This document shows positions 14,053 to 29,350 of a stretch of 64,000 nt of DNA, one piece after another. The stretch's first letter is position 1; every line of letters starts with the position of its first letter. The notes under the pieces are model-generated. The model was not told the DNA's origin and did not search any database. It was given only the letters and a program-made list of their open reading frames with translations. Source of the stretch: Rhodanobacter sp. OK091 (lineage in GTDB: Bacteria > Pseudomonadota > Gammaproteobacteria > Xanthomonadales > Rhodanobacteraceae); assembly GCF_900142825.1 (NCBI RefSeq), contig NZ_FRCH01000002.1:62001-126000 (forward strand). Reading direction: 5' to 3'. A program made the position numbers and the translations under genes.

Positions 14053-14754
14053 ATGTCCGAATCTGGCTGGACCATTCTGTGTGATTTCGACGGCACGATT
14101 TCCGTCGAGGACGTGATCGACTCGCTGCTCGACCGTTTCGGCCGCCCGGGCTGGGAAGTGCTGGAGCAGGACTGGCGCGCCGGCCGCATCGGCTCGCGCG
14201 AGTGCATGTCGGGCCAGGTCGATCTGCTGCAGATGACCCGCGCGGAACTCGATGCGCATCTGGGCGAGCTGTGGATCGACCATGCGTTTCCGGGTTTCGT
14301 GGCGAAGACGCGCGAACTGAACGTGCCGATCCGCGTGGTCAGCGACGGTCTCGATTATGCGATCCACAAGATTCTCGGCCGTTACGGCCTGGACACGCTG
14401 CCGCTGGCGGCGAACCACCTGTCGCCGGCCGAACCGCCGAAGCAGTGGCAGCTGACCTCGCCGTTCCAGGCCGACGGCTGCCGCAGCGGCACCTGCAAGT
14501 GCGCCTGCGTGGCGCAGGCCCGCAAGACCGGTGCGAAAACCTTGCTGATCGGCGACGGCGCCTCGGATTTCTGCGCCGCCGACCGCGTCGATTTCGTGTT
14601 CGCCAAGCATCGCCTGATCGAGCATTGCCGCGCCACCGGCATCGACTACGTGCCGATCACCGGTTTCGAGGATGCGCTGGAGTTCCTGCCTAAGCTGCTC
14701 GACGGCAGCCTGGCCAGCCATTGGCACCATGAGCCGGCGCACGCGCTTCCCTGA
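14053..14754 (+). CDS. MtnX-like HAD-IB family phosphatase
   Basis: 233 residues. HAD motif I is DFDGT (nucleophile D11, acid D13), motif II the Ser/Thr region near RVVSDG, and motif IV IGDGASDFCAADR. The length and motifs match the phosphoserine-phosphatase-like HAD-IB group that includes MtnX. Start ATG 14053 is preceded by GTGAG; a TTG 21 bases upstream is possible but less likely. A small stem (14002-14007 with 14014-14019) lies in the leader; its role is unknown. The gene is followed after 63 bases by a class III aminotransferase on the same strand, so they probably form a two-gene unit. Substrate unknown; a phosphorylated amino or hydroxy acid is plausible. Confidence 0.85.
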   Translation: MSESGWTILCDFDGTISVEDVIDSLLDRFGRPGWEVLEQDWRAGRIGSRECMSGQVDLLQMTRAELDAHLGELWIDHAFPGFVAKTRELNVPIRVVSDGLDYAIHKILGRYGLDTLPLAANHLSPAEPPKQWQLTSPFQADGCRSGTCKCACVAQARKTGAKTLLIGDGASDFCAADRVDFVFAKHRLIEHCRATGIDYVPITGFEDALEFLPKLLDGSLASHWHHEPAHALP

Positions 14755-14817
14755 TCGCGTCGCACGCCGTACTTTTTCCTGCATCTGTACTCCCCGAATC
14801 ATTCCGGATCATTCCCC

Positions 14818-16218
14818 ATGAAAATCGACAAGACCGCCGCCGGTTTCATCGACGACGCGCAGCTGCTCGCCGACGAAGCCAAGTACAGCTCGTTCGGCGA
14901 CACCGTGCATTACGTGGACCCGCCGAAGATCTTTCGCCACGGCGAAGGCAGCTACATGTACGACACCGCCGGCACGCCGTTCCTCGACCTGCAGATGTGG
15001 TATTCGGCGGTCAATTTCGGCTACGGCAACCCGCGCCTCAACCATGTGCTGAAAGAGCAGATCGACCGTCTGCCGCAGGTGGCCAGCCAGTACCTGCACC
15101 AGACCCGCATCGAGCTGGCCAAGACGGTGGCGCTGGATGCGAAGAAGAAGTTCGGACTGGACGGCCGTGTGCACTTCAACGTGGGCGGTGCGCAGGCGAT
15201 CGAGGATTCGCTGAAGATCGTGCGCAACGCCAGCAACGGCAAGAGCCTGATGTTCGCGTTCGAGGGCGGCTACCACGGCCGCACCCTGGGCGCCTCGTCG
15301 ATCACGTCGAGCTATCGCTACCGTCGCCGCTTCGGCCACTTCGGCGAGCGCGCGATGTTTATCCCGTTCCCGTATCCGTTCCGCCGCCCGAAGGGCATGA
15401 CGCCGGAAGAATATTCGGACGCTTGCGTGCGCCAGTTCGCCCGCCTGTTCGAAACCGAATACAACGGTGTGTGGGATCCGAAGGTGAACCAGGCCGAATA
15501 CGCCGCGTTCTACGTCGAGCCGATCCAGGGCACCGGCGGCTACGTGATCCCGCCGATGAATTTCTTCAAGGACTTGAAGAAGGTGCTGGATCAGTACGGT
15601 ATCCTGATGGTGGTCGACGAAATCCAGATGGGTTTCTGGCGCACCGGCAAGCTGTGGTCGATCGAGCACTTCGGCGTGACGCCTGATGTCTTGGTGTTCG
15701 GCAAGGCGTTGACCAACGGCTTGAATCCGCTATCCGGCCTGTGGGCGCGCGAAGAGCTGATCAATCCGACCATCTTCCCGCCGGGCTCGACCCATTCCAC
15801 GTTCAACTCCAATCCGCTGGGTACCGCGCTGGGCCTGGAAGTGATCAAGATGGGTTACGAGCTGGACTACGAGACCAGCGTGCCGAAGAAGGGCGCGCAT
15901 TTCCTCGAAGGCCTGCGCGACCTGCAGAAGCGCCACAAGGAAATCGGCGACGTCGACGGCCTCGGCCTGGCGCTGCGCGCCGAGATCTGCACCGACGACG
16001 GCTTCACGCCGAACAAGGCGCTGCTCGACAAGATGGTCGACATCGGCCTGGCCGGCGACCTCGAGCACAACGGCAAGAAGATCGGCCTCGTGCTGGACGT
16101 GGGCGGCTGGTACAAGAACGTGATCACCTTCGCGCCGTCGCTGGAGATCACCCATGAGGAGATCGACCTGGCGATCGCCTTGCTCGATCAGCTGCTGACC
16201 AAAGCCAAGAAGGGTTGA
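14818..16218 (+). CDS. Class III PLP-dependent aminotransferase
   Basis: 466 residues of the acetylornithine/omega-amino-acid aminotransferase fold. Seen: the EGGYHGRTLGA phosphate-binding region (about 149-159), DEIQ (267-270) that contacts the PLP ring nitrogen, and the Schiff-base lysine K296 in FGKALTNGLNP. The start ATG 14818 fits the family N-terminus. Enzymes of this class move an amino group between a terminal or side-chain amine and a keto or aldehyde group; some relatives are phospho-lyases, which would suit the phosphatase gene upstream. Actual substrate unknown. It ends 42 bases before a strong bidirectional terminator. Confidence 0.9.
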   Translation: MKIDKTAAGFIDDAQLLADEAKYSSFGDTVHYVDPPKIFRHGEGSYMYDTAGTPFLDLQMWYSAVNFGYGNPRLNHVLKEQIDRLPQVASQYLHQTRIELAKTVALDAKKKFGLDGRVHFNVGGAQAIEDSLKIVRNASNGKSLMFAFEGGYHGRTLGASSITSSYRYRRRFGHFGERAMFIPFPYPFRRPKGMTPEEYSDACVRQFARLFETEYNGVWDPKVNQAEYAAFYVEPIQGTGGYVIPPMNFFKDLKKVLDQYGILMVVDEIQMGFWRTGKLWSIEHFGVTPDVLVFGKALTNGLNPLSGLWAREELINPTIFPPGSTHSTFNSNPLGTALGLEVIKMGYELDYETSVPKKGAHFLEGLRDLQKRHKEIGDVDGLGLALRAEICTDDGFTPNKALLDKMVDIGLAGDLEHNGKKIGLVLDVGGWYKNVITFAPSLEITHEEIDLAIALLDQLLTKAKKG

Positions 16219-16260
16219 GCCTGGCCGTGCGTGGGCCAGGCATCATGGGGGCTGGCGCAA

Positions 16261-16292
16261 AAAGAACCCGGCGACATGTCGCCGGGTTCTTT
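16261..16292. terminator. Bidirectional rho-independent terminator (perfect 32-base palindrome)
   Basis: The sequence from AAAGAACCCGGCGACA to its exact reverse complement is a perfect 32-base inverted repeat with GC core and A/T ends. A-run on the left and T-run on the right allow it to end transcripts from both directions. It lies between the converging aminotransferase (stop 16218) and ketosynthase (stop 16317) genes. Confidence 0.9.
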
Positions 16293-16316
16293 GGTTTGTT
16301 GCGCGGTGGAATGCCG

Positions 16317-17552
16317 TTACGGTGCGCGCTTGAGCGCGAGCACCGCGTTGAGTCCGCCGAACGCGAACGAGTTGCTCAGTGCGGCACGCACCGGCATCTC
16401 CCGGGCGACATTCGGCACGTAATCCAGATCGCAGGCCGGATCGACCTTGTCCAGGTTTGCGGTGGGCGGCACCACGCTGTCACGCAAGGCGCCAACCACC
16501 GCCACCAGCTCCAGCGCGCCGGACGCGCCCAGCGCATGGCCATGCATCGACTTGGTCGAGGACACTGCAAGGCGATCGGCATGCGCGCCGAACGCAAGAC
16601 GGATCGCCTTGGACTCGGTGACATCGTTGGCGAGAGTGCCGGTGCCATGGGCGTTGATGTAGTCGACGTCCTCCGGAGCGAGAGCGGCATCGGCGAGCGC
16701 CTGGCGCATCGCGCTGGCCGCTCCGTCCGCGCTGGGCATCACGATGTCGGTGGCATCGGCGGTCATGCCGCTGCCGGCCAGTTCGGCGAGGATGGTCGCG
16801 CCGCGTGCTTGAGCATGTTCCAGCGATTCCAGCACGAAGATGCCGGCGCCCTCGCCGAGCACCAGGCCGCGCCGGTTGATGCTGAACGGGCGGCAGGTGT
16901 CGTCGGCCAGCACGCGCATCGCCTCCCACGCTCGCAAGGCGCCATACGTGATGCACGCTTCGGTGCCGCCGGTGATGGCTGCATCGACCATGCCGTAGCG
17001 GATCATCATGGCGGCCTGGATGATCGCGTGGTTCGCCGAGGCGCAGGCGCTGGCCACCGCATAGGTGGGTCCGCGCAGGCCATAGGCGATGCTGATCTGG
17101 CTGGCCGAGGCGTTGGTCATCAGGCGCACGATGGTGAGCGGATGCGCGCGTTGGGAATTCTCCCCGTACAGCCGCTTGCTCTGCTCGTCCTGGGTGGTTT
17201 CGCCGCCGACGCCGGTGCCGACCACGCACGCCGTGCGCACGCCGAGACCGTTCTGGCGAAACTCCAGTCCGGATTGCGTGATCGCCTCACGCGCCGCATG
17301 CAGCGCGAATTCCGAGGTGCGGTCGAGCATCGGCAGGATGCGTTCGTCGATATTCGCTGCAGGGTCGAAACTCGCCGGCACCTGGGCGGCGATCTTCACA
17401 CGCAGGCGCGCTGCATCCGGATGGTTCAGCGGACCGATCGCACTGCGGCCTTCGCGCAGGCCTTGCCACAGCGCCTCGGCACCGACGCCGAGCGGGCTGA
17501 TCGCGCCCATGCCGGTGATCACCACGCGGCGCATCAGTGGAACCGTGGACAT
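16317..17552 (-). CDS. Beta-ketoacyl-ACP synthase, FabF-like (KAS II type)
   Basis: 411 residues, full length for FabF. The catalytic triad is complete: C170 in VASACASANHA, H302 in NAHGTGT, and H339 in SMHGHALGASG with K334 before it. It condenses an acyl group with a malonyl-type unit on an acyl carrier protein. The start ATG 17552 shares one base with the stop of the upstream acyl-carrier-protein gene (TGATG). This is not the fatty-acid fabF locus: no fabD, fabG or fabH is nearby. Neighbours are aminotransferases, an acyltransferase and exporters, so a dedicated secondary role is likely. No chain-length-factor partner or reductase is present in the window. Confidence 0.92.
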   Translation of the reverse strand: MSTVPLMRRVVITGMGAISPLGVGAEALWQGLREGRSAIGPLNHPDAARLRVKIAAQVPASFDPAANIDERILPMLDRTSEFALHAAREAITQSGLEFRQNGLGVRTACVVGTGVGGETTQDEQSKRLYGENSQRAHPLTIVRLMTNASASQISIAYGLRGPTYAVASACASANHAIIQAAMMIRYGMVDAAITGGTEACITYGALRAWEAMRVLADDTCRPFSINRRGLVLGEGAGIFVLESLEHAQARGATILAELAGSGMTADATDIVMPSADGAASAMRQALADAALAPEDVDYINAHGTGTLANDVTESKAIRLAFGAHADRLAVSSTKSMHGHALGASGALELVAVVGALRDSVVPPTANLDKVDPACDLDYVPNVAREMPVRAALSNSFAFGGLNAVLALKRAP

Positions 17553-17824
17553 CAGTTCGATCCTTCGCCCGCGGCGGCCTTGTCATCCAGCGCCTTCTGC
17601 ACCGCGTCGACCAGGCTCTGCGTCGTGTCGGTGTCGAAGTTGGCCCCTTGCTGGTCCGGGAAGGTGATGTTGAAGTGTTCCTCGATGTCGAAGATCAATT
17701 CGATCGCCTCCAGCGAAGCGATGCCCAGATCCTTCAAGGTGGATTCGGGCTTGATCGTGGCCACGTCGATCTTGGCCTGCTTGGCAATGAGATCGAAAAT
17801 CTGTTGCTGGGTTGTATCGGTCAT
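17552..17824 (-). CDS. Acyl carrier protein, dedicated to the adjacent ketosynthase
   Basis: 90 residues of a four-helix phosphopantetheine-binding carrier. The attachment serine is S37 in LGIASLEAIEL. The usual D-S-L is A-S-L here; the aspartate before the serine, normally conserved in AcpP, is missing, which suggests a specialised partner set. The C-terminus has a short Ala/Gly tail (DDKAAAGEGSN). The gene is the first of a two-gene unit with the ketosynthase (1-base overlap) and is divergent from the acyltransferase gene at 17893. The 68-base gap between them must hold both promoters; I could not assign hexamers with confidence. Confidence 0.9.
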   Translation of the reverse strand: MTDTTQQQIFDLIAKQAKIDVATIKPESTLKDLGIASLEAIELIFDIEEHFNITFPDQQGANFDTDTTQSLVDAVQKALDDKAAAGEGSN

Positions 17825-17892
17825 GACGAGTAGGCTCCTGGCTGCGCACGACAGTGTTACATATCAACCAGTCTAGGCAGATTTGCTTACTC

Positions 17893-18963
17893 ATGCCTTT
17901 CATTTCGCAATTGGAACCGGACGCACTGCTCGCGCATTTCATGGCGCAGCCGCCGATCGGGTTTGCCGTTGAACTCTCGCCGCAGGGCATGCCGAGTTTC
18001 GTGGCGCCGTTCGACCTGCTGACCACCGCGGACGATGAACTGCGCCGTCGAGTGACGCACTTGCCGCTGTATCGCTGGTGGGGGCGCCTGCTGCGCTGGC
18101 GCACGCGCTTTGCCGGTACCACCGTGTCCGAGTATGCGCCGCTGCCTCCGGGCGTGACGCCAGCCGAACTGGCGCAGGGCCTGAAGGCCGCGTACGGGCG
18201 TGAATGCCGGTTGCTGATCGTCAAGGACATCGCGCAGGACTCACCCCTGCTCAGCGACGCCGACAACGCCTATGCGCAAGCATTCGCCAGCGCCTGCGAA
18301 GCCGAGGGCTATGTGCTGCTCGAAGGTCAGGCGCTGGCTTGGGTGCCGATCGATTTCGCCTCGGGCGACGAGTATCTGGCGCGACTGTCGTCCGGCCGAC
18401 GGAAGAACATCCGGCGCAAGCTGCGTTCCCGCGCCGACCTCGAGATCGAGATGGTGCACACCGGTGATGCACGCTTCAGCGACGCGGCGACCCTGGCGGC
18501 GTTCTATGCGCTGTTCGACAACGTGTACGCGCAAAGCGAGATCCACTTCGACCGGCTGAGCGCGGCATTCTTTCGGGAGGTGCTGCAGGACGGCGGCAGC
18601 GGCGGCGTGGTGTTCGTCTACCGGCATGCCGGGCAGATGATCGGCTGGAATCTCTGTTACGAACATGGCGGCAAGCTGATCGACAAATACGTCGGCTTCG
18701 CCTACCCGCAGGCACGTGAGCACAACCTGTACTTCGTCAGCTGGATGCACAATCTCGACTACGCGCGGCAGCGCGGCCTGAGCCATTACGTAGCCGGCTG
18801 GACCGACCCCGAAGTCAAATCCTTTCTGGGCGCAAGCATGACTTTTACCCGTCATGCGGTATATGCCCGCAACCCGCTGTTGCGTGCGCTGCTGCGCCGA
18901 CTCGGCAGCCATTTCGAGAGTGATCGCAGCTGGCAGGCGGCCACGGAGGCTACCAATGAATAA
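17893..18963 (+). CDS. FemAB/GNAT-like N-acyltransferase (COG3146-like)
   Basis: About 356 residues. The middle and C-terminal part fit the double-GNAT fold of FemAB-type or 'peptidogalycan' acyltransferases: SSGRRKNIRRKLR, then FYALFDNVYAQSEIHFDRL, GGVVFVYRHAGQMIGWNL and LIDKYVGFAYPQAREHNLYF. Such proteins transfer acyl or aminoacyl groups to amines. I chose ATG 17893; a GTG at 17854 is possible but has no better ribosome site. The last 8 bases overlap the start of the ureohydrolase-like gene, so the two are coupled. Next to a ketosynthase and carrier protein it may use an acyl-ACP as donor, which is inference. Confidence 0.75.
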   Translation: MPFISQLEPDALLAHFMAQPPIGFAVELSPQGMPSFVAPFDLLTTADDELRRRVTHLPLYRWWGRLLRWRTRFAGTTVSEYAPLPPGVTPAELAQGLKAAYGRECRLLIVKDIAQDSPLLSDADNAYAQAFASACEAEGYVLLEGQALAWVPIDFASGDEYLARLSSGRRKNIRRKLRSRADLEIEMVHTGDARFSDAATLAAFYALFDNVYAQSEIHFDRLSAAFFREVLQDGGSGGVVFVYRHAGQMIGWNLCYEHGGKLIDKYVGFAYPQAREHNLYFVSWMHNLDYARQRGLSHYVAGWTDPEVKSFLGASMTFTRHAVYARNPLLRALLRRLGSHFESDRSWQAATEATNE

Positions 18964-19837
18964 CCTGGCGAACCGGCCTGTCGTGCTCGACATCGACCAA
19001 TCGGTGGGGCCGTTGCCCGACCGATTGGTGCTGCCGCTGGCGCACTGGCAGGAATCGATCCGCTTCGGCTCGTCGCTGGCGACGATGCGGCGCTTCGGCT
19101 TGATGCTCGACGAATTGCTGCCGGCCGAGTACGGCACTGTATTCCTGGGCAGTGGCGACTTCCATCACCTGAGCTGGCCATTGATCGCACGCCTGCCATC
19201 GCGCACGCCGTTCCAGGTCGTGGTACTCGACAACCACCCGGACAACATGCGCTTTCCGTTCGGCGTGCATTGCGGTTCGTGGGTGCGTCGCGTGGCGATG
19301 CTGCCGCAGGTCAGTCACGTGCATGTGCTCGGCATCACTTCGAGCGATATCGGTGGCGGTCATGCGTGGGAGAACTATCTGACCCCGTTGCGGCGCGGCA
19401 AGCTGAGCTATTGGAGCATCGGCGTGGACACCGGCTGGTCGCGCCGGCTTGGGCTGGCGCATGCATTCCATGGTTTCGACTCGCCCGAAGCGATGGTCGA
19501 TGCGTTCGTCGAAGCGCAGCGCACGCAAACGGTGCCGAGCTACCTGTCGATCGACAAGGATGCGTTCTCACCGGAGGTGGCGCATACCAACTGGGATCAA
19601 GGCCGGCTGCTGACCGATCACGCGCTGGCGTTGATCGGCAGTCTGCGTCACGGCCTGGTCGGCAGCGACATCAACGGCGAGGTTTCGCACTACCGCTACC
19701 AGAGCTGGTGGAAGCGCCGGCTATCGGCGATGGACGAGCAGCCCGAGATCGATCCGGCGCAACTGGCCGGCTGGCAGGCGCAGCAGCATGCGTTGAATCT
19801 GCAGTTGCTGGCGGCGATTGCGGCAAAGTCCGGCTGA
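18956..19837 (+). CDS. Arginase/ureohydrolase-fold protein
   Basis: 293 residues. Dinuclear metal motifs of the arginase-agmatinase-deacetylase fold are visible: GSGDFHH (H70/H71), LDNHPDN (D92, H94, D96) and SIDKDAFSP (D200, D202). The overall order and spacing match ureohydrolases, which cleave guanidino groups (arginine, agmatine, formiminoglutamate), but the substrate loops are not ones I recognise. It overlaps the upstream acyltransferase gene by 8 bases and ends one base before a converging aminotransferase gene. Its place in this cluster suggests processing of a guanidino or amide group in the product; that is inferred. Confidence 0.78.
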   Translation: MNNLANRPVVLDIDQSVGPLPDRLVLPLAHWQESIRFGSSLATMRRFGLMLDELLPAEYGTVFLGSGDFHHLSWPLIARLPSRTPFQVVVLDNHPDNMRFPFGVHCGSWVRRVAMLPQVSHVHVLGITSSDIGGGHAWENYLTPLRRGKLSYWSIGVDTGWSRRLGLAHAFHGFDSPEAMVDAFVEAQRTQTVPSYLSIDKDAFSPEVAHTNWDQGRLLTDHALALIGSLRHGLVGSDINGEVSHYRYQSWWKRRLSAMDEQPEIDPAQLAGWQAQQHALNLQLLAAIAAKSG

Positions 19838-19838
19838 C

Positions 19839-21050
19839 TCAGCCAAGGACGGTTTCCAGAGTGCGGCAGACCGTCTCGAAATCCTCGTCAGTCACCCACG
19901 GGCTGTTGCTGATGCTCAGGCTGCGCGCCGCGAAATCGCGCGCATGCGGCACGTCCTGCGGCGGCACCACGCCAGCGAGATAGGCATAGTCGGGCAGGGC
20001 GTGGATGAACAGGCGGCTGACGCCGAGACCGGATTGCCACAACTCGGTCAGTGCGGCATCGCGGCGTCGTTGGTCGGGCAGCATCAGCAATAAAAACGGC
20101 CAGGTGCCGTGCGCGCCGACAGGATCGTCGAGGACCTCGACGCCATCGATACGGCGCAGTCGGGGCAATCGTTGTTGCGCTTGCGCAGACAGCAGATCGA
20201 GAAACGTCGGCAGTCGGGTCGCGGCATGCGCGCCGACGGCCTGGCGCCAGTGGCCGACGCGATGCAGCGGTATCGTCAGCGGAAAGTCATCGCCCACCGC
20301 GGCAACCGGATCGCCGCGGCGCAGGGCGCGACGCAACGGATTGCCATATGCCAGACGCAGACCGCGTGGTCGATATAACGCGGCGTAGCCGAGCAGTTCG
20401 ATGCTGCGTTTCCATTCCCAGGCGAAGCTGTGCGGCACGATGCGGGCGGCGGTGCGGGCGAGGCGTTCGCGCATGACGGGGTCGCGCGCCAGCAGCAGCC
20501 CGCCTTCGTAGATCGACAACCCTTTGCCGGCGGCCAGGCTGAAAAAGCCGATATCGCCTGACAGGCCCACGCTGACATGGTCGCGGCGTGCGCCCAGTGC
20601 CTGCGCGGCATCCTCGATCACGTAGGCGCCCACGTTGCGCGCCACGGCGAGCGCATCGTCGACATCGGCGACGCGGCCGGCCAGATGGGTGGGAATGATC
20701 GCCAGCGTGCGTTCGTCACAGGCGGCACGCAAGGCGGCCGGATCCATGTCGTAGTGGCTGGCGCGCAGATCGCACAGCTGCAATTCGAGCCCGGCCTGCT
20801 GCACGGCGATCGCCACCAGCGGACAGGTGAACGCGGGAACCACGACGCGCCGGCGCTGCGGCTGCAGTTCGCGCAGCGTCGTCAGCGCGATCAGCAGTGA
20901 CGCAGTGCCGGAGCACTCCAGTTGTAGCGGCGGCGTGCCCAGCTGTGCGGCGATGTCGGCGGCCAGGGTGGCTGCGCCCGGACGCAGGTCGGCCAGTCGC
21001 AACGGCAGGCCGGCGGTGGGTGGCAGTTCGTGGGGGCGGCGGGACAGCAT
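19839..21050 (-). CDS. DegT/DnrJ/EryC1/StrS-family PLP aminotransferase
   Basis: 403 residues. Fold type I PLP features: CSGTASLLIAL (about 46-56) for phosphate binding, VIEDAAQALGA with D147, and FSLAAGKGLSIYEGG with Schiff-base lysine K176. The family makes amino sugars (ArnB, StrS) or related amines. It is the last gene of the long minus-strand run; it starts 20 bases after the stop of the small transporter gene at 21071. The ribosome site is weak. An ArnB-like enzyme beside an ArnE/ArnF-like pair is striking, but no other Arn gene is present, so a lipid-amine or unknown sugar substrate is as likely. Confidence 0.87.
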   Translation of the reverse strand: MLSRRPHELPPTAGLPLRLADLRPGAATLAADIAAQLGTPPLQLECSGTASLLIALTTLRELQPQRRRVVVPAFTCPLVAIAVQQAGLELQLCDLRASHYDMDPAALRAACDERTLAIIPTHLAGRVADVDDALAVARNVGAYVIEDAAQALGARRDHVSVGLSGDIGFFSLAAGKGLSIYEGGLLLARDPVMRERLARTAARIVPHSFAWEWKRSIELLGYAALYRPRGLRLAYGNPLRRALRRGDPVAAVGDDFPLTIPLHRVGHWRQAVGAHAATRLPTFLDLLSAQAQQRLPRLRRIDGVEVLDDPVGAHGTWPFLLLMLPDQRRRDAALTELWQSGLGVSRLFIHALPDYAYLAGVVPPQDVPHARDFAARSLSISNSPWVTDEDFETVCRTLETVLG

Positions 21051-21070
21051 GCGCGCAGCTTAGCCGGTGC

Positions 21071-21466
21071 TCAGGCTTCGGCCGGTTCCGGCACGTGCTC
21101 GCGGCTCTCGGCCATGCCCAGGCAGACGATGCCGGCGATGATCGCGATCGCACCCAGCACACGGGCGGCGTTGAGGTGTTCGTCGAACAACCACACGGAC
21201 AGCAGCATCACCGACACCACTTCCAGATGCGAAGCGGCGAAGGCGGGGCCGATCGGCGCGTGCTTGAGCAAGGCCATCCAGGTGAAGAAAGCGCCGATAT
21301 AGCCGATCACGGCACCGTAGACCCATGGCTGACCGAACACGCGCAACACCCATTCGAGGCTGGCGGCGACGGGCAGTGCCTGCGTGCCGGCATACTTGAA
21401 GCTGATCTGCGCAAGGGTGTCGAAACCCATCAGCAACAGGAAGCCGAACAGATAGAAGCGTTTCAT
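21071..21466 (-). CDS. Small EamA/SMR-type transporter subunit (ArnF-like), second of pair
   Basis: 131 residues with four predicted membrane helices. The first helix contains GFDTLAQISFKYAG, resembling the GQ..K signature of ArnE/ArnF and other short EamA proteins. The start ATG 21466 overlaps the stop of its sister gene (ATGA); the longer open frame upstream belongs to the sister's coding region. The C-terminus is a short soluble tail (AESREHVPEPAEA). Such half-size proteins work as heterodimers that flip lipid-linked or cationic substrates across the inner membrane. It precedes the DegT aminotransferase gene by 20 bases. Confidence 0.8.
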   Translation of the reverse strand: MKRFYLFGFLLLMGFDTLAQISFKYAGTQALPVAASLEWVLRVFGQPWVYGAVIGYIGAFFTWMALLKHAPIGPAFAASHLEVVSVMLLSVWLFDEHLNAARVLGAIAIIAGIVCLGMAESREHVPEPAEA

Positions 21467-21843: not shown

Positions 21844-22679
21844 CAGGCAGCGATGCGCTGCGTGCCGGTCGACGCGGCGATGTCGTCGAAGAACGCGGCC
21901 GAGCGATCGATCAAGGTGCGGCGCTCCCGGTCGATCGTGATCATGTGGTAGCTGTCCTTGAGCAGCAGTAGCTCGGCCGGCGCACTGACTTCGCGCATCA
22001 CGAGTTCGGCATTTTTCAGGCTGGCGACGTCGTCCTCGCTGGCATGCGCGACCAGGCAGGGCGCGGTCACCTGCGGCAACTGGCTGCGCACCTCGGCAGC
22101 GAGGTGATACATCTCGGCCAGCGAATACCACGGGTTGCCGGGCAGGCCGGCAGCGGCACTGTCGCCGCTGAGCATCGCCGTGCTGACCTGCGCGCGCAGG
22201 CGCTCGTCACGGATGCCGTACGGCGGTTGTTCCATGAAACTGAAGTTGCGGCCGATGCCGAGCTTCTTCAGCAGCGGCAGCATGAATGACAGTCGCGCAG
22301 CCCACGGAATGCTCCAGCCGTCATAGCGGAAGGTAGCGCCATACACGCCGACGCCAGCGACCTGCTGCGGCCGATCCGCCGCCAGCTTGAGCGCCAGCAG
22401 CGCGCCCATCGACAGTCCGCCCACGAACAGGTGGTCGACCTTTTTCAGCATGTCGTCGGCGGCTTTCTCGACGCTGGCGTACCAGTCGCGCCAGCCGGTG
22501 GCGAGCAGATCCTCGACGTTGCCGCAGTGACCGGCCAGCTGCATGCCATGCACGGTGAAGCCGGCACGGTTCAGGCCCTTGCCGAGCAACCGCATTTCCA
22601 TCGGTGTGCCGGTCAGGCCATGGATCAGCAGCACGCCGCTGCGGCCGCCCTCGAAGAAGAAATCAGTTTGCTGGATCAC
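21843..22679 (-). CDS. Est30-like carboxylesterase / monoacylglycerol-lipase-type hydrolase
   Basis: 278 residues from GTG 22679, chosen because AGGG lies 8 bases upstream and homology-like sequence starts there (IQQTDFFFEGG); the open frame runs on but reads into a hairpin. Alpha/beta hydrolase motifs: oxyanion region LIHGLTGTP, nucleophile S90 in GGLSMGAL, and the acid and His in ASEDD and KDSYHMITIDRE, the latter typical of Est30-type carboxylesterases. No signal peptide, so cytoplasmic. In a ketosynthase/carrier-protein setting it could act as a thioesterase or deacylase. It leads the esterase-SMR-SMR-DegT part of the run. Confidence 0.83.
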   Translation of the reverse strand: MIQQTDFFFEGGRSGVLLIHGLTGTPMEMRLLGKGLNRAGFTVHGMQLAGHCGNVEDLLATGWRDWYASVEKAADDMLKKVDHLFVGGLSMGALLALKLAADRPQQVAGVGVYGATFRYDGWSIPWAARLSFMLPLLKKLGIGRNFSFMEQPPYGIRDERLRAQVSTAMLSGDSAAAGLPGNPWYSLAEMYHLAAEVRSQLPQVTAPCLVAHASEDDVASLKNAELVMREVSAPAELLLLKDSYHMITIDRERRTLIDRSAAFFDDIAASTGTQRIAA

Positions 22680-22698
22680 GCGGTAGCCCTGTGCGGTG

Positions 22699-22726: not shown

Positions 22727-22759
22727 CTTCAGGCCTAAGGATCGCAGAACGCGGTTTCC

Positions 22760-23743
22760 TCAGCCTTTCGGCGCGGTACGGGGCGGTGTCGTGGCGGCGC
22801 CAAAGCGCACCATCACACGCTGGCCGATGCGCAGGTTCTTGGTTTGATCGGAGGTGGGTTCGTCGAATGCCAGCACACATTCCACCGTGCGCGCGTTGGC
22901 GCGCACCTGCGGGTCGTTTTCCAGCGTAGCCGGGCCGTACACCCGGCCGATGCGCAGCACGTGCGCGCTCCAGCGGGTATCGTCGCGGCCGCTGTCCGGC
23001 ACCACCTCGGCAGGCATGCCCGGCTGGATCACGCCGACGAAACTGTCGTTGAGTTCGGCACGGACGATCCGCGGTTTCTGCGGCAACAAGGTGAACAGCG
23101 GGCCGGAGGTGGGCGATACGCTGGCACCGGGTTGCGCCGACACCTGCACCACGTCGGCGTCGAACGGCGCGAGCAGGCTGCGCTGCTTCAATTCGTAGCG
23201 GGCTTCGTCCAGCTTCTGACTGGCCATGCTCAGCGCCGCGCGGGTGCTTTGCTGTTCGGCATCGAGTTGGGCGGCCGCTTCGCGAGCGTCGTCGGCGCTC
23301 TGACCGTCGCCGGCACCCGCGGCGACGGCAGCGGCCAGTCGCTGGGCACGCTGCTTTGCCCCAACCTGTTTGACCGCGATCAACTTCAGTTGCGCCTGTA
23401 TCTGTTCCAGTTGCGCCTGGGCGGCTTCGATGGCCAGCGTGGCCGGCTGGGTGTCCAGCGCGGCGAGCAGCTGACCCTGCTTGACGTGGTCGCCTTCATG
23501 CACGGCGACCTTGGCAAGGGTGCCTTCGCGCGGCATCGACAGCGTCAGCAAGCCCCCTTCGATGTCGACCTTGCCGCGCGCCACGGCGGCGTAGGCGGCG
23601 GGCGGCGCGGTGGCGTTGGTCGATTCGTCGGCGGATCGTGAGCAGCCTACCAGCAGACACGTCAGCGTCAGCGCGATGCCACCAAGCCGGATCAGCCGCG
23701 GGCCGTATGAGTATCGCGGCGTAGGGTATGCGGGCGGCTTCAT
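22760..23743 (-). CDS. ABC-exporter periplasmic adaptor (HlyD/DevB/MacA-like lipoprotein)
   Basis: 327 residues from ATG 23743, with AAGGA 9 bases upstream and a lipoprotein signal (LTLTCLLVGC). Adaptor features in order: first lipoyl half (VHEGDHVKQGQLLAALD), a long coiled coil (AIEAAQAQLEQIQAQLKLI to the second helix), second lipoyl half (LLAPFDADVVQVSAQPG), then beta domains. The start overlaps the ATPase stop (ATGA). The set permease-ATPase-adaptor matches DevBCA/MacAB exporters, where the adaptor joins the inner-membrane transporter to a TolC-like channel; the channel gene starts this operon. Confidence 0.88.
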   Translation of the reverse strand: MKPPAYPTPRYSYGPRLIRLGGIALTLTCLLVGCSRSADESTNATAPPAAYAAVARGKVDIEGGLLTLSMPREGTLAKVAVHEGDHVKQGQLLAALDTQPATLAIEAAQAQLEQIQAQLKLIAVKQVGAKQRAQRLAAAVAAGAGDGQSADDAREAAAQLDAEQQSTRAALSMASQKLDEARYELKQRSLLAPFDADVVQVSAQPGASVSPTSGPLFTLLPQKPRIVRAELNDSFVGVIQPGMPAEVVPDSGRDDTRWSAHVLRIGRVYGPATLENDPQVRANARTVECVLAFDEPTSDQTKNLRIGQRVMVRFGAATTPPRTAPKG

Positions 23744-24495
23744 GACTTGTTTTCCTTGTTGTCGACGAGCGGTGCATGGGTGTGCCGGTCGCTCAGAATG
23801 CGGCCATCTTCCATCGCCAGGACACGGTCGGCGTGGACGACCAGACGCGGATCGTGGCTGACGCACAGCACCGTGGTGCCGTGGGTATGGGCGATCCGGT
23901 GCAGGATATCGATGATCATCTGGCCGTTGGCTGCGTCCAGCGCACTGGTCGGTTCGTCGGCGAACAACAGCTCTGGTTCCTTGGCCAGCGCGCGGGCGAT
24001 CGCCACGCGTTGCTTCTCGCCGCCGGACAGTTCGGATGGCCGCAAACGCATGCGGTGCGCCAGGCCGACCTCCTCCAGCGATTGCTGTGCACGGCGGCGA
24101 GCCTCGTTGCGCGACAAACCCATGTGATTCAGCGGCAACTCGACCTGCTCGAAGGCGCTCAGTGCGGGGAACAGATTGAAGCCCTGGAACACGAAGCCGG
24201 TGTGCTGCAGGCGGAAGCGTTCGAGCGCGCGCAGGTCGAGCTGGCCCAGCTCACTGCCGAGCGCCTGCACGCGCCCGCTATCGACCTTCTGCAGCCCGCT
24301 GAGTATGGCCAGCAAGGTGCTTTTGCCGCAGCCGGACGGGCCGGAGATCAGGGTCAGTTCGCCGGCTTCGATACTCAGCGTGAGGCCATCCAGCACCTGG
24401 GTGCGCTGCTGACCTGAAACGAACGCCTTGCAGATGTTTTCCGCCAGCAGAGCAGGCGTCCGTACAGGTTCGGTGGCGGCGGCGGGATGTGTCAC
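23740..24495 (-). CDS. ABC-exporter ATPase (LolD/MacB/DevA-like)
   Basis: 251 residues from GTG 24495, which has GAGG a few bases upstream and lies just past the permease stop; a much longer open frame in the record is read-through into the permease region. Walker A GPSGCGKST (52-60), Q loop VFQGFN, signature LSGGEKQR (from 156), Walker B LLFADE (176-181) and H-switch CVSHDPR are all intact. It powers the permease encoded upstream. Family members serve exporters of lipoproteins, macrolides, or in DevBCA glycolipids. Confidence 0.92.
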   Translation of the reverse strand: MTHPAAATEPVRTPALLAENICKAFVSGQQRTQVLDGLTLSIEAGELTLISGPSGCGKSTLLAILSGLQKVDSGRVQALGSELGQLDLRALERFRLQHTGFVFQGFNLFPALSAFEQVELPLNHMGLSRNEARRRAQQSLEEVGLAHRMRLRPSELSGGEKQRVAIARALAKEPELLFADEPTSALDAANGQMIIDILHRIAHTHGTTVLCVSHDPRLVVHADRVLAMEDGRILSDRHTHAPLVDNKENKS

Positions 24496-24497
24496 GA

Positions 24498-25628
24498 CTA
24501 CCTCAGCAACGTGGCGGGATCGGCGCGGCGCAGGCTGCGCATCGCGGCCAGCCCGGAGACGGCGGCCAGCCCCATGACCAGAATGATGCAGGCCAGCGCC
24601 GCCGGCACGTTCAGCACCACCGGCACGTCCTGGCTGCGCGCCAGCATCATCAGCACGATGCCCAACGCGCTGGCGCCAAGCAGGCCCAGCGCACCGACCC
24701 AGAACGCCTGCTCCAGCACCACCCTGCGCAATGCCGCCACGCCTACGCCGAGCGCGTTGAGGGTGGCATATTCGCGTACCGAGCCGTTGACTGCGGCGAT
24801 CAGGGTCTGGCTGGTGATCACCGCACCGACCAGGAACACGATGCCCGCCAGGAACAGCACGCCGGCGCCGGCGCCGGTATCGAACAACCAGTACAGCACC
24901 GAGCGCCGTGCAAAATCTTTGGCGCTCCAGGTGGTGTACGGGCCGAACGCTGTGTCGCCACGCAGGCGCGCGGCGACCGCATTGGCCTGGGACGAATCGC
25001 GCAGCTTGGCGACCAGATAAGTCGGGCCACTGTCGGCCGGATCGTCGTTCAGCCGCCGCGCGGTATCCAGCGAGCACAGCACGTTGACGCCGCCCAGCGC
25101 ACGCAGGCCGCTACTGATGCCGACCACACGCACCGGATGGCCGTTGATGGTGGCGGTCTGGCCGATGGTGACGCCGAGCTGGTCCAGCACGGAGCGGTCG
25201 ACGACGACGGCGTCCGGTTCGGCCAGCCGCGCACGCAATCCGGCCGGCAATGCCTTGGAGAACATCAGGCCATTGGCACTCGGATCGATACCGGAGACGA
25301 ACACCGAAACGCCGCCGGTTTCACCAGCGCCGCGCCAGTCGCCGTCGACCCAGATATACGGTTCGACCCGCTGCACCGCCGGATCCATCAGTACATGCGA
25401 TTCCACGTCGGCACTGATGGTGCGGCCCGAACCCACGCTCTGGGTGCCGGGATAACCCACCCATACGTCAGCCGAGGAACCGGTGATGTACAGGCTGGTG
25501 CTGCCGAAGATGCCCAGCACCAGAGCGATCTGCAGCAACTGCAACAAGCCGGCGAAGCCTACCGCCAGCATGGCCGGCAGAAAGCGCCGCCATTCGTAGA
25601 TCAGTGTCTTGCGCGCGAGGGCCACCAT
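24498..25628 (-). CDS. ABC-exporter permease (MacB/DevC/FtsX-type)
   Basis: 376 residues from ATG 25628, which shares one base with the stop of the outer-membrane factor gene. One N-terminal membrane helix (about 14-38), a ~230-residue periplasmic MacB-type core domain (YITGSSADVWVGYPG, VVGISSGLRALGG), then three C-terminal helices with the FtsX cytoplasmic loop (REYATLNALGVG). This is the four-helix DevC/MacB architecture with a separate ATPase. It stands two bases from the start of the ATPase gene. It would drive substrate from the periplasmic leaflet through the adaptor and outer-membrane channel. Confidence 0.9.
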   Translation of the reverse strand: MVALARKTLIYEWRRFLPAMLAVGFAGLLQLLQIALVLGIFGSTSLYITGSSADVWVGYPGTQSVGSGRTISADVESHVLMDPAVQRVEPYIWVDGDWRGAGETGGVSVFVSGIDPSANGLMFSKALPAGLRARLAEPDAVVVDRSVLDQLGVTIGQTATINGHPVRVVGISSGLRALGGVNVLCSLDTARRLNDDPADSGPTYLVAKLRDSSQANAVAARLRGDTAFGPYTTWSAKDFARRSVLYWLFDTGAGAGVLFLAGIVFLVGAVITSQTLIAAVNGSVREYATLNALGVGVAALRRVVLEQAFWVGALGLLGASALGIVLMMLARSQDVPVVLNVPAALACIILVMGLAAVSGLAAMRSLRRADPATLLR

Positions 25629-27091
25629 CAGCGGCGCGCTCCGTCGGGAGTGGATGCATCTTGCTGCTGCGTATCCGTCTCGGCGACGGTCGGCAACGGT
25701 GCGCCGCCGAGGGCCTTGAACAGTGCCACGTAGGCCAGGCTGTGCCCGGCCCGGGCATCGGTCAATTCGATCGCGGCCTGATCGGCGGCTATGCGGCTCT
25801 CGGCAAAATCGAGCGGACTGCCCAGGCGCAGGTTCACCCGCGTTTGTGCGGCCTGATCGACGCGCTGCAGCGCCTGCCATGCGAGCAGGCTGTGCTGTTC
25901 ACGCTGCTGCTGCTGCTGCACGGCTCCCAGTGCGGTTTCCACCTCGGTCACACCTTGCAGCACCGCTTGCCGGTAAGCCAGCACGCTGGCTTTCAGCTCG
26001 TGATCCTTCGCATGCTTGGCAGCCAGCCGGATACCCCAGTCGAACAAGGGAATATTGAGTTCCGGCCCTATCGAGACGATCGAATTGGGGGTATTGGCAT
26101 ATCTGTGGTTGTTGTCGATGTCGGTCGACCAGTCGATCGAACCGCCCAGGCCGATGCTGGGAAACAGATCGGCATGCGCCAGCGCCAGTGCGCCGGCGGC
26201 CTGCAGCACGTCCGCTTCTGCGCGGGCAATCTCCGGCCGCGTGCGGACCAGGTCGGCCGGGGCGCTGGCGAGCTGCCATGCGCCCAGTTCGGGCTGCATG
26301 CCCGGTTGCAGCCATGCGGCGTCGGGCTGGTTCCGGCCGAGCAGCATGGCCAGTCGCTGGGCACTGGCCGTAATGGCCTGCCGAGGCGCCGCCAGGGCGG
26401 CCGTGGATTGCGCGAATGCGGCCTGGGCTTGATCCACCGTCCCGGGTGCTACCAGTTGCAGGCGCTGGCGTACCTGCTGCAACTGCCATTCGTGCTCGCG
26501 GGCCTGGTTGATCCCCAGCAGCAGCTTTTCCTGCTGTTGGGCGCTGCGCAGCTCGATCCACTCACGCACGACTTCGGCGACCAGCGAGACCTGCGCGCTG
26601 CGCAGGTCGGCGAGGCCGGCATCCAGTGCTCCCTGGGCTTCCCGCCGGGTGCCCTCGGCCCGGCCAAACAGGCCAAACTCCCAGCTGGCATCGAAGCCGA
26701 GCAGCAGGTAGGAAGCACTTGCGCTCGGTTCGACCACGTCGTTGGTGCTCGCACGCAGCGACGGCAGGTAGCGCGCCTGGGAGCGGTCGCGCAGCGCACG
26801 TACGGCGCGCAGTCGCTCGACCGCCTGGGCCACATCGAGATTGTTGGCCAACGCACGGTCGACCAGAGCATCGAGTTCGGAATCGCCGAAGGCATGCCAC
26901 CAGCCATGCAGATCGGTCGGCTTGGCCGGATCCGAGGCCATCGCGTGCTGCCATTGGGCTGGCACGGGCGGCGTCAACTTGGGCAGCGGTGCAGCGCAAC
27001 CGGCGAGCCCGCACAGCGCGGCGCCCAGCATGCATGCGCGCAGCCGGTTGCCGGGAGTTGCCTTGCTCAGTCGAAATGGCACGGGGTGCAT
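25628..27091 (-). CDS. NodT-family outer-membrane efflux lipoprotein
   Basis: 487 residues from ATG 27091, giving a lipoprotein signal (GAALCGLAGC). Longer open frames upstream lack a signal and read into the gap behind the kinase gene. The protein has the RND/ABC outer-membrane-factor pattern: WWHAFGDSELDALVDRAL near the N-terminus, two repeats with long helices, and PELNIPLFDWG in the second repeat. It is the first gene of the exporter operon, 169 bases after the sensor kinase stop. I saw no convincing promoter in that gap, so it may be co-transcribed with the two-component genes or have its own regulated start. Confidence 0.88.
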   Translation of the reverse strand: MHPVPFRLSKATPGNRLRACMLGAALCGLAGCAAPLPKLTPPVPAQWQHAMASDPAKPTDLHGWWHAFGDSELDALVDRALANNLDVAQAVERLRAVRALRDRSQARYLPSLRASTNDVVEPSASASYLLLGFDASWEFGLFGRAEGTRREAQGALDAGLADLRSAQVSLVAEVVREWIELRSAQQQEKLLLGINQAREHEWQLQQVRQRLQLVAPGTVDQAQAAFAQSTAALAAPRQAITASAQRLAMLLGRNQPDAAWLQPGMQPELGAWQLASAPADLVRTRPEIARAEADVLQAAGALALAHADLFPSIGLGGSIDWSTDIDNNHRYANTPNSIVSIGPELNIPLFDWGIRLAAKHAKDHELKASVLAYRQAVLQGVTEVETALGAVQQQQQREQHSLLAWQALQRVDQAAQTRVNLRLGSPLDFAESRIAADQAAIELTDARAGHSLAYVALFKALGGAPLPTVAETDTQQQDASTPDGARR

Positions 27092-27260
27092 TTTTCCATG
27101 GTGATGCCTTGACGCCGGTATATCCGTCGGTTCTCGGTGACGGCTCTCGCGCGTCATGATCGTGGTCCGGTACCTGCTTATTCTGAGGGCATCGGGCGAG
27201 ATCGCAAAACCGGACCGGTCAGCGCTAGGCGGTATACAGCGAAGCATGCGCCGATCAGGC

Positions 27261-28664
27261 TCATGCGGGGCGGGTCGCGGGGGAGATTGACGGCGGCGGG
27301 AAGCGCACTTCCACCACCAGCCCATGTTCCTCGGCTAGCCGATAAATCACCTCGGCGTGATGCCGTTCGGCAATCCGCTGGACGATCGCCAGCCCCAGCC
27401 CGCTGCCTTCCTCGCCATTGTCGGCAGCGCGGAAAAAGCGCTCGTGCAGGCGCGGCAGCAGTTCGGGTGGCACGCCGGGCCCGTTGTCCTCGACTCGGAG
27501 GCTGGCGCCGCCATCGGCGCTGGCCTCCAGATTGACGGTGACGGTACTGCCACGACCGGCGTACCGCATGGCGTTGTCGATCAGATTGTCCAGCAGATCC
27601 AGCACGCTGGCCGCGTCGCCATCGATATATAGCGGTCGGGTGAGGCCCTCGTAGCCCAGATCGATCCCGGCGCGGATCGCCTCATGGATGCGCTGCGCTA
27701 CTGCTTCGGGAATCAATCGACCCAGGTCGAGCAGGCCGCGCTCTACGTTATCCAACGGCGCTGCCTGCGCACGGGTCAGCGCCAGCAGTTGCGACGATGT
27801 ACGCGCGGCGCGCTGGGTCAACCGCTGGATGTGGACGAGTGCGTCGGTCACCGTTTCGGGTCGCGGATCGGCCAGCGCGCGGTCGACATGCAGGCTCAAC
27901 CCGGTCAGTGGCGTGCGCAGCTGATGGGCGGCATCGGCGATGAAACGGTCATGCAAGGCCAGCATGCCGCGCAGGCGGCCGAACAACGCGTCGATGGTGC
28001 GTGTCAGCGGCTGGATTTCCTGCGGCACATCGGGGCCGTCGATCGGAGTCAGTTCATGCGAACGGGCCGCCAATCGGGCTGTCAGTGGGTCGATGACGCG
28101 CAGGCCGCGGCTGACCCCGAACCAGACCAGCGACAGCACGCAAACGATCAGCAAGGTCTGCATCAGGATCGCCAGCAGCAAGATTTCCCGTGCTTGTTCA
28201 CGTCGATCGCGCAGGGTTTCGGCGACGGTGATGATCAGGCTGTCACCGGGGTCGCGGGGCGATGCAGTGCGGACCGTCGCCACCCGCAGGCTGTGTTTGT
28301 CGAGCCTGCTGTCGTACAGCCTCGGTGCGGCGCCGAGTGGAGGCGCCTGCGCGAGCTGCGGCAGCTGCCCGTTGCCGGCCAGCAGGCCGTGTCGCATGCT
28401 GATTATGCTGAAGTAGCTGCGACCTCCCGGATCGTATTCGAGCAGGAACCGCGCTTGCGGTGTCAGCTCGCTGCCCAGCTGGTCGTTACCGAGCATCTTC
28501 GCCACGGTCAGCGCATCGTCGCTCAGGTCACGGTCGTGCACCCGGTTGGCATAGGTCAGCGCCACGCCATAGGTCAGCAGCGCGTCCAGCAACAGCAGGG
28601 CAGCCATCGGAATCAGCAGGAAAATCAGCAGGCGGCGACGCAAGCTGGGACGCAGGCGACTCAT
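27261..28664 (-). CDS. Membrane sensor histidine kinase (TctE/QseC-like)
   Basis: 467 residues from ATG 28664, overlapping the response-regulator stop (ATGA). Membrane helices near 12-34 and 162-185 flank a ~125-residue periplasmic domain; then HAMP, the H box with H247 (DAAHQLRTPL), N box (LDNLIDNAMRYAG), EDNGPGVPPELL and GEEGSGLGLAIVQR. The periplasmic region fits the two-component sensor kinase N-terminal domain of TctE-like proteins, some of which sense carboxylates. It lies directly upstream of the ABC exporter operon in the same direction, so that operon is the natural target. Confidence 0.92.
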   Translation of the reverse strand: MSRLRPSLRRRLLIFLLIPMAALLLLDALLTYGVALTYANRVHDRDLSDDALTVAKMLGNDQLGSELTPQARFLLEYDPGGRSYFSIISMRHGLLAGNGQLPQLAQAPPLGAAPRLYDSRLDKHSLRVATVRTASPRDPGDSLIITVAETLRDRREQAREILLLAILMQTLLIVCVLSLVWFGVSRGLRVIDPLTARLAARSHELTPIDGPDVPQEIQPLTRTIDALFGRLRGMLALHDRFIADAAHQLRTPLTGLSLHVDRALADPRPETVTDALVHIQRLTQRAARTSSQLLALTRAQAAPLDNVERGLLDLGRLIPEAVAQRIHEAIRAGIDLGYEGLTRPLYIDGDAASVLDLLDNLIDNAMRYAGRGSTVTVNLEASADGGASLRVEDNGPGVPPELLPRLHERFFRAADNGEEGSGLGLAIVQRIAERHHAEVIYRLAEEHGLVVEVRFPPPSISPATRPA

Positions 28665-29350
28665 GCGGAACTGCCCGCGGATTCCGCCACTTCTTCCAGC
28701 AAATAGCCGAGGCCGCGGATCGTGCGCACGCCGGTGCCGCTGCCTTGCAGCTTGCGGCGCAAGCGGTGGATCGCGATGTCCAGGCCGTTGTCGGTCAACT
28801 CTTGATCCCAGTCGCACAGCGCCTCGATCAGCTGGGCACGACTGGTGACGCGATCGGCACGCAATGCCAGCGCTTCCAACAGGCTGAATTCGCGCGCAGT
28901 CAATTCCAGTGGCGACCGGTCGATCCACGCGCGGTGTCCAGGCAGATCCAGCCGCAGCCGGCCCAACTCCAGCTCCGGCTTGCCCTGACTGCTGGCCCGG
29001 CGCAGCAGGGCACGCACACGTGCCTCGAACTCGGCCAGCGCGAAGGGCTTCACCAGATAATCATCGGCGCCCAGGTCGAGCACGCGGATGCGTTCGGGCA
29101 GGCCGTCGCGGGCGGTTACTACCAGCACCGGCATCACCGTGCCGCGACTGCGCAGGCGGCGCAGCACCTCGCTGCCATCGAGCGAGGGCAGGCCAAGGTC
29201 CAGTACCAGCAGGTCGTAGTCGTGATCGCGCAGGGCTGCGTCAGCCAGACTGCCACTGGTCACATGGTCCACGGCATGCCCACCGTGCCGCAGCGATGCG
29301 CAAATCGCACCGGCGATGGAAGGGTCGTCTTCGGCCAGCAAAATGCGCAT
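28661..29350 (-). CDS. OmpR-family response regulator (TctD/QseB-like)
   Basis: 229 residues: receiver with acidic pair D8-D9, phospho-acceptor D51 (VLDLGLPSLDG), conserved T and K (VTARDGL, YLVKPFA), then winged helix (LTAREFSLLEAL, LDIAIHRLRRKL, IRGLGYLL). Start ATG 29350 is at the edge of a divergent intergenic region. Its stop overlaps the kinase start. I looked for the PmrA-type repeat found near the other TCS and did not see it here or before the exporter operon, so the two systems probably read different sites. Confidence 0.92.
   Translation of the reverse strand: MRILLAEDDPSIAGAICASLRHGGHAVDHVTSGSLADAALRDHDYDLLVLDLGLPSLDGSEVLRRLRSRGTVMPVLVVTARDGLPERIRVLDLGADDYLVKPFALAEFEARVRALLRRASSQGKPELELGRLRLDLPGHRAWIDRSPLELTAREFSLLEALALRADRVTSRAQLIEALCDWDQELTDNGLDIAIHRLRRKLQGSGTGVRTIRGLGYLLEEVAESAGSSA

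Follow-up and report, generated by a model that had tools for sequence, protein, structure and literature searches.

A widely conserved gene set in Rhodanobacter sp. OK091 that may encode a modular, envelope-directed amine-lipid pathway

We analysed a window of 64,000 nucleotides from Rhodanobacter sp. OK091 (contig NZ_FRCH01000002.1, positions 62,001 to 126,000) and, within it, a locus at 14053-29350 which an earlier reading of the letters without database searches (hereafter the sequence-only reading) had proposed to make and export an acylated amine or amino-sugar product. Profile searches of the window proteins recovered 16 out of the 16 genes named there as open frames with the families ascribed to them (Table 1). 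They are arranged on both strands in four same-strand runs, HAD-AT3 (forward), ACP-KS (reverse), FEM-ARG (forward) and a long reverse run from RR to DEGT. The long run consists of RR-HK, OMF-PERM-ABC-MFP and ABH-SMR1-SMR2-DEGT, with genes overlapping at several junctions. No sigma-70 promoters were found in a search in which 2.0 were expected by chance, an uninformative outcome. The gene set is a widely conserved unit, and its product may be an amine-bearing lipid of the cell envelope.

Table 1. Features of the locus in window coordinates, with their profile matches.
Feature	Description	Position	Strand	Match
HAD	MtnX-like HAD-IB phosphatase, putative core module	14053..14754	+	TIGR01489, PF12710
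AT3	class III PLP aminotransferase, putative core module	14818..16218	+	PF00202 2.6e-72
Palindrome	terminator-like, between convergent AT3 and KS	16261..16292	unstranded	perfect 14-pair stem
KS	FabF-like beta-ketoacyl synthase, N and C domains, optional module	16317..17552	-	TIGR03150, PRK07314
ACP	carrier protein, optional module	17552..17824	-	PF00550 7e-10
FEM	FemAB-like tandem-GNAT transferase	17893..18963	+	PF04339 5.8e-13
ARG	ureohydrolase-fold protein, 8-base overlap with FEM	18956..19837	+	PF00491 (Arginase)
DEGT	DegT-fold aminotransferase	19839..21050	-	PF01041 7.1e-39
SMR2	small EamA/SMR transporter subunit	21071..21466	-	PF00892 above cut-off; EmrE E 0.001
SMR1	small EamA/SMR transporter subunit	21463..21843	-	PF00892 26.9 bits, just under cut-off 28.2
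ABH	monoacylglycerol-lipase-like (Est30-like) alpha/beta hydrolase, putative core module	21843..22679	-	PF12146 (Hydrolase_4) 2.2e-21
MFP	HlyD/RND-type periplasmic adaptor	22760..23743	-	TIGR01730 82.0 bits, under cut-off 94.9; DevB 54 bits
ABC	DevA/LolD-like ATPase	23740..24501	-	TIGR02982 222.1 bits, under cut-off 295.8
PERM	DevC-like ABC permease	24498..25628	-	TIGR01185 90.7 bits, under cut-off 290.35
OMF	NodT-type outer-membrane channel	25628..27091	-	TIGR01845 218.9 bits, above cut-off 210.05
HK	sensor histidine kinase (QseC/PmrB-like)	27261..28664	-	QseC 180.2, heavy-metal sensor 147.9 bits, both under cut-off
RR	response regulator (PmrA-like)	28661..29350	-	PRK10643 PmrA 211.9 bits, under cut-off 330

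A species-level scan (one genome per species) detected at least 530 confirmed ARG relatives, the closest among the matches listed being from Rhodanobacter panaciterrae (92%). The best 80 loci were kept, with surrounding stretches of at most 20.9 kb. They spanned Rhodanobacter, Dyella, Luteibacter, Frateuria, Dokdonella, Xanthomonas, Comamonas, Delftia, Pigmentiphaga, Xylophilus and others. FEM was the matched gene immediately preceding ARG, on the same strand, in all of these 80. The further genes were represented by DEGT (61 loci), SMR2 (60), AT3 (58), SMR1 and ABH (57 each), KS and ACP (55 each), HAD (49), MFP (40), PERM and OMF (37 each), HK (29) and RR (25), where HK, RR and ABC matches include unrelated paralogues. 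Since many contigs end within the stretch, these counts are mostly lower bounds, and a gene called missing is one not seen in the stretch, except where the whole genome was searched. Gene calls in the compared stretches came from a codon-usage gene caller and their starts are approximate. This caller replaced the raw clustering of open frames for further conserved partner genes, which the spurious frames of high-G+C sequence had overwhelmed.

Among 200 genomes of the same order, ARG was found in 38, FEM in the identical 38 and AT3 in 40, with 37 genomes common to all three. The eight genomes of the same genus in this sample, that of OK091 included, all carried ARG, FEM and AT3. In a sample of 398 genomes from the phylum, the 16 genomes with ARG were a subset of the 25 with AT3. 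In the plasmid collection, AT3 (E <= 1e-100) was found in 34 records, from Rhizobium, Agrobacterium, Sinorhizobium, Phyllobacterium, Bartonella and Xanthomonas, and ARG was present in all 34. Thirteen more plasmid records had ARG without that AT3 (11 from Roseomonas, the others from Azospirillum and Aureimonas), and the three inspected, one from each genus, possessed a glutamate-1-semialdehyde-aminomutase-like class III enzyme in its place. A Fisher test on co-occurrence ignores relatedness and was not used as evidence. Locus sets overlap (L034 and L071, for example, come from a single contig), and so residue counts, as well as counts over the 148 stretches used below, are non-independent. The linkage of these genes is not due to chance and the locus is a conserved unit, as linkage and co-occurrence counts both exceed chance expectation. 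The homologues are not scattered in close relatives, and the set recurs across Rhodanobacteraceae and beyond, including alpha- and betaproteobacteria.

The unit is modular. Five genomes had split loci (G039, G046, G085, G125 and G184), in which HAD-AT3, the exporter and the two-component system were apart from KS-ACP-FEM-ARG, the latter being far off or on a different contig. The DEGT-SMR-SMR-ABH block directly adjoined KS-ACP-FEM-ARG in four of the five, and in G184 ABH and DEGT were about 12 kb away. Three genomes (G060, G140 and G169) possessed AT3, HAD, ABH and SMR1 and lacked FEM, ARG and DEGT altogether; two of them kept KS. In eight of the nine phylum genomes that had AT3 only, HAD was within about 2 kb of AT3, and seven of those eight also had ABH, the eighth being represented by a contig 4 kb long. 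Four AT3-only genomes from a single family (f57) had KS in the same gene run, three of them with ACP, and another (G202) retained the small transporter pair, the exporter and the two-component system. One AT3-only genome (G229, 54% identity) had none of the partner genes, and its match could belong to another enzyme. All 13 genomes searched for ABH had it somewhere. From this distribution, HAD-AT3-ABH would be the widest visible core, FEM-ARG a second layer that is accompanied by DEGT in many genomes, and KS-ACP an add-on that appears in two unrelated lineages. Parts are missing or rearranged in many loci, as might be expected of neighbours without a common pathway. However, the genes co-occur genome-wide even when unlinked, in alpha-, beta- and gammaproteobacteria, and FEM, ARG and DEGT are jointly absent from the three genomes above, so that mere neighbourhood is extremely improbable.

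The ketosynthase and its carrier protein, which the sequence-only reading named as builders of acyl chains, are not the heart of the locus. Both are optional, as the counts in the best 80 loci show, and no ketosynthase was found at the search cut-off in 12 out of 25 genomes checked, including four of six Luteibacter-type genomes. KS and ACP were not found in the alpha- or betaproteobacterial stretches inspected either, and these absences rule them out as the defining step. KS fell below the cut-off of the FabF equivalog TIGR03150 (456.8 bits, cut-off 493.75) and above that of subfamily PRK07314 (436.4 bits, cut-off 387), and its nearest paralogue in its own genome shared 45%. Its C170, H302 and H339 were each at least 95% conserved in 87 sequences, as was S37 of ACP in 86. 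Elsewhere in the genome, seven ketosynthase matches were found in one open frame of 10771 codons (G000:C1:824764-851331), probably encoding a giant synthase of the modular polyketide or hybrid kind.

Among the candidate core enzymes, HAD passed the cut-off of the MtnX-like HAD-IB subfamily TIGR01489 (84.9 bits, cut-off 81.55) and was far below that of the MtnX equivalog of methionine salvage (TIGR03333, 79.3 bits, cut-off 303.2). Its D11 and D13 were conserved in 110 of 116 relatives, the other six being gapped at that place. AT3 was the most conserved enzyme in the set, with a mean column identity of 82% over 10 diverse rows, and its catalytic K296 was present in all 121 relatives. The nearest solved structure to ABH was a monoacylglycerol lipase (5xks, 8.1e-33). 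The ABH nucleophile was Ser in 106 of 112 sequences and Cys, within a G-I-C-V-G box, in six (L032, L151, L152, L153, L154 and L155), all from plasmids of Agrobacterium, Rhizobium and Phyllobacterium. A change of nucleophile from Ser to Cys is known from acyl-transferring lipase-like enzymes, such as polyhydroxyalkanoate synthase.

Plasmids of Rhizobium leguminosarum and Phyllobacterium carried the operon HAD-AT3-ARG-SMR1-desaturase-ABH-FEM-SMR2-CFA synthase, the last gene encoding a cyclopropane-fatty-acid (CFA) synthase. The desaturase and CFA synthase of R. leguminosarum were confirmed by Pfam (PF00487 and PF02353). Of these two genes, Rhizobium sp. BG4 had just the desaturase and the inspected Agrobacterium loci had neither. 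A CFA synthase relative followed ARG on the same strand in seven loci (three from Comamonas, one from Delftia and three from other metagenome-assembled genomes), two of them overlapping the ARG stop by 4 bases, and in L189 a desaturase adjoined HAD. In seven Dyella-type stretches, a CFA synthase was located 8-10 kb away, and these were left out of the support. Lipid-tailoring genes within the operons of other, independent lineages support a lipid product, and the proposal of an acylated amine gains from them, while its amino-sugar variant found no specific support. Judging by gene content, then, the product would be a lipid. OlsBA and GlsBA make ornithine, glycine and glutamine lipids, which resemble the proposed product in being amino-acid-containing acyl lipids. 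Unlike in those systems, the amine here would come from aminotransferases, and none of the 16 proteins matched an OlsBA or GlsBA family.

FEM, which had been taken for a FemAB/GNAT-like acyltransferase, has indeed a FemAB-like GNAT fold, but its predicted fold is nearest to those of aminoacyl-tRNA-dependent transferases. What it transfers may therefore be an amino acid and not a fatty acyl chain. Its most likely start, from the alignment consensus, is that of Table 1, the longest frame starting at 17854, and its length is 356-369 aa. PF04339 (FemAB_like) was its only Pfam match at E up to 0.01, without PF09924 (LPG_synthase_C) or the FemAB family proper, and FemX was not found in the profile search. 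The predicted model was a single mixed alpha/beta fold throughout (pLDDT 93.1), showing the tandem-GNAT fold of the MprF synthase domain and the FemABX fold. In structure comparison the nearest solved folds were Sbb17/Sba18, FemX, MprF and A-PGS, with an identity to the best matches of 10-16%; acyl-CoA users (mycothiol synthase and N-myristoyltransferase) were also matched. The basic residues K124, R183, R188, K189, K278 and K322 were invariant in 137 sequences. On the evidence of the model, FEM is probably an aminoacyl-tRNA-dependent transferase. It differs from its best structural matches, the ligases FemX/FemABX and Sbb17/Sba18, in family and in a lipid-like context, as opposed to cell wall or streptothricin.

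MprF (multiple peptide resistance factor) is an aminoacyl-phosphatidylglycerol synthase and flippase, and in both systems a transferase would work alongside a translocator in the membrane. Unlike MprF, FEM is a separate protein without a fused membrane flippase domain, the translocator here would be the small-transporter pair, and the locus adds an aminotransferase, a phosphatase, a hydrolase and a ureohydrolase. The same genome also encodes a protein with PF09924 that has the size of MprF. In the same-order sample MprF was found in 30 of 38 genomes with FEM-ARG as opposed to 16 of 162 without, and this positive co-occurrence rules out the locus as a substitute for MprF.

ARG matched PF00491 with 25.6 bits (cut-off 22), and all 61 members of its group matched at E up to 1. 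Its metal ligands, H70/H71, D92, H94, D96, D200 and D202, placed by motif and not by superposition, were invariant in 61 rows. They lie in the motifs GSGDFHH, DNHPD and SIDKD, which differ from the GGDHS, DAHXD and SXDXDXXDP of conventional arginases (PMC10028609). The peptide arginase OspR, which acts on arginine within a larger molecule (PMC10028609), shares the fold and the binuclear-metal ligands with ARG, whose partner is a FemAB-like protein. The idea that ARG is a histone-deacetylase-like amidohydrolase was rejected, as the 50 best rows were all ureohydrolases, although a family missing from these rows is not thereby excluded. As a UPF0489 member it was rejected, with two of 61 members matching (best E 0.21). 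Besides arginase, agmatinase and guanidinopropionase are also similar to ARG. This likeness, together with the use of the GNAT-type fold by acyl-CoA users, would suit an ordinary N-acyltransferase working with an agmatinase-like ARG on an acylated polyamine of the acyl-putrescine type, with no tRNA involved. We regard that as unlikely, given that in structure FEM matches aminoacyl-tRNA users best and that its six basic residues are invariant.

DEGT retained K176 in all 91 relatives. Of 13 genomes checked, the nine same-order genomes with FEM-ARG all had DEGT and the three without FEM-ARG did not. The remaining genome, from another order (G431), had FEM-ARG and lacked DEGT. This genome (L202 and L176) also had two FEM copies on different contigs, one with ARG and SMR genes and the other with HAD-AT3-ABH and a two-component system. 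DEGT was absent from the alphaproteobacterial stretches of the Rhizobium-type plasmids inspected and present in Roseomonas. The small transporter pair called ArnE/F-like in the sequence-only reading is present, but the label is loose, as SMR1 scored 30.9 against a cut-off of 92 bits for ArnE and SMR2 27.6 against 99 for ArnF. SMR2 alone reached the PF00892 cut-off, and for PF00893 (SMR, EmrE-type) it was just short (22.8 bits, cut-off 23.7) while SMR1 had no match. The charged residues noted are Asp23, Lys31 and Glu65 in SMR1 and Asp16 and Lys24 in SMR2. Eight positions before the invariant Lys, an Asp or Glu was present in 99 of 99 SMR1 and an acidic residue in 100 of 106 SMR2 sequences. We take this to be the Glu14/Lys22 spacing of EmrE, the place being set by the distance to Lys, and a cationic substrate is therefore favoured.

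The DegT fold, a pair of ArnE/F size, a PmrA-like regulator and a PAP2 phosphatase next door recall the Arn (Ara4N lipid A) system. They could mean that lipid A or undecaprenyl phosphate is modified with an amino sugar made by DEGT and flipped by the small pair. Yet no Arn family cut-off was reached by the locus proteins (DEGT scored 66.5 against 631 for ArnB), no glycosyltransferase, formyltransferase, ArnT-type or other Arn family was among the 16, and the alphaproteobacterial stretches mentioned above lack DEGT, although Roseomonas has it. Such a modification is improbable.

The exporter was likened to the glycolipid exporter DevBCA. DevA and DevC are the best matches of its ATPase and permease, and DevB is among those of its adaptor, but all three are below the cut-offs (54 against 129 bits for DevB; Table 1 for DevA and DevC). 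In 148 stretches, a redundant set with some genomes present twice, the three-part exporter was found in 64, MipA-type proteins in 51 and either in 94; no MipA was found in the OK091 genome. The combination of a complete exporter with two aminotransferases and a ketosynthase that has a dedicated carrier looks like a small biosynthetic cluster. With exporter genes in 64 stretches, a diffusible secondary metabolite (a fatty amine, lipo-amino acid or siderophore-like compound) secreted through the exporter and outer-membrane channel has to be considered. However, no adenylation, condensation or tailoring-oxidase family was among the 16 proteins, and many stretches keep the rest without the exporter. 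Moreover, a metabolite of sporadic occurrence would not fit the presence of ARG, FEM and AT3 in all eight same-genus genomes of the sample, the conservation of AT3 is very high and a separate small transporter pair is retained. A secreted metabolite therefore seems rather unlikely.

In Pseudomonas aeruginosa, MipA is reported to be a polymyxin co-sensor acting with the ParRS two-component system (PMC10936184). Because of this role elsewhere, and because the window regulator is PmrA-like, it is reasonable to guess by analogy that envelope stress controls the locus.

We tentatively read the locus as a modular, envelope-directed amine-lipid pathway, with a probability of roughly 0.45. HAD, AT3 and ABH would form the core making an amine-bearing acylated molecule. 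AT3 would add the amino group to a keto or aldehyde precursor, HAD would strip a phosphate and ABH would hydrolyse or transfer an acyl group. KS and ACP would supply or lengthen the acyl chain in many same-order genomes and one distant family; in some rhizobial and Comamonas/Delftia loci, chain tailoring by desaturase and cyclopropane synthase would take their place. FEM would put an amino acid from aminoacyl-tRNA on the core product or on another lipid. ARG would then act on a guanidino group, converting arginine to ornithine and urea, and the amino acid is for this reason most simply arginine. Across the inner membrane, the cationic product may be flipped by the SMR1/SMR2 pair. The exporter and channel, or the MipA-type outer-membrane protein of other lineages, may serve the outer envelope, and the PmrAB/QseBC-like two-component system may exert control.

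A narrower form, in which FEM as a stand-alone enzyme arginylates a dedicated amine lipid from arginyl-tRNA, ARG trims the arginine to ornithine on the lipid, and the small-transporter pair flips the lipid under the control of a two-component system for envelope stress, is conceivable but doubtful. Ornithine is not known to have a tRNA. The gene set, its linkage and co-occurrence, the intact catalytic residues and the predicted folds were observed, and the lipid nature, amino-acid donor, ARG substrate, transport and signal of the broader pathway are all inferred from them. Several points weigh against this pathway: the product is predicted from genes, the aminoacyl-tRNA donor is assigned by fold only, the association with MprF is positive and not negative, and genes are lost in modules among the loci.

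Several neighbours of the locus and its relatives were recorded. The PAP2 phosphatase (PF01569, 13238-13861) lies immediately left of HAD on the opposite strand, and in Roseomonas an undecaprenyl-diphosphate phosphatase adjoins the cluster (L031:6379-7218). Further left in the window, 4399-13159 holds a separate two-component system and, accompanied by an adaptor and an outer-membrane factor, an AcrB-type RND efflux pump (PF00873). MCE lipid-transport genes (54402-57937), presumably PqiA/PqiB-like (PqiA/PqiC in naming) and including an MlaD domain (PF02470, 55623-57317), lie 25 kb downstream, and nothing was seen that connects them with the locus. A Bartonella plasmid (L030:12900-15422) has AT3-FEM-ARG beside an AlgX-like SGNH protein (PF16822) and an annotated MBOAT acyltransferase, and in L070 an MBOAT relative adjoins ARG. 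In the ACP-KS-HAD-AT3-ABH runs of the distant family, a protein of 245 aa lies beside ABH (L197:7420-8157 and L199:7828-8565); the copies are alike and the L197 copy had no Pfam match at E 0.001.

The sequence-only reading did not recognise the gene set as a described pathway. This agrees with the open-licence literature, in which no description was found, subscription papers and preprints being outside the coverage; nothing on topic was found there for a guessed Stenotrophomonas link either. The locus is thus more conserved than earlier supposed and apparently undescribed. If the pathway proposed here is correct, hundreds of environmental, plant- or host-associated bacteria would make a membrane lipid class that we have not found described, by a route drawing on aminoacyl-tRNA outside translation. 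"Unidentified aminolipids" are a wider pattern in taxonomic descriptions, and the pathway could explain some of them (one example is PMC12789092). It would plausibly explain what members of PF04339 (FemAB_like) and of the divergent arginase group do, and would provide a testable route by which bacteria may tune their surface charge.

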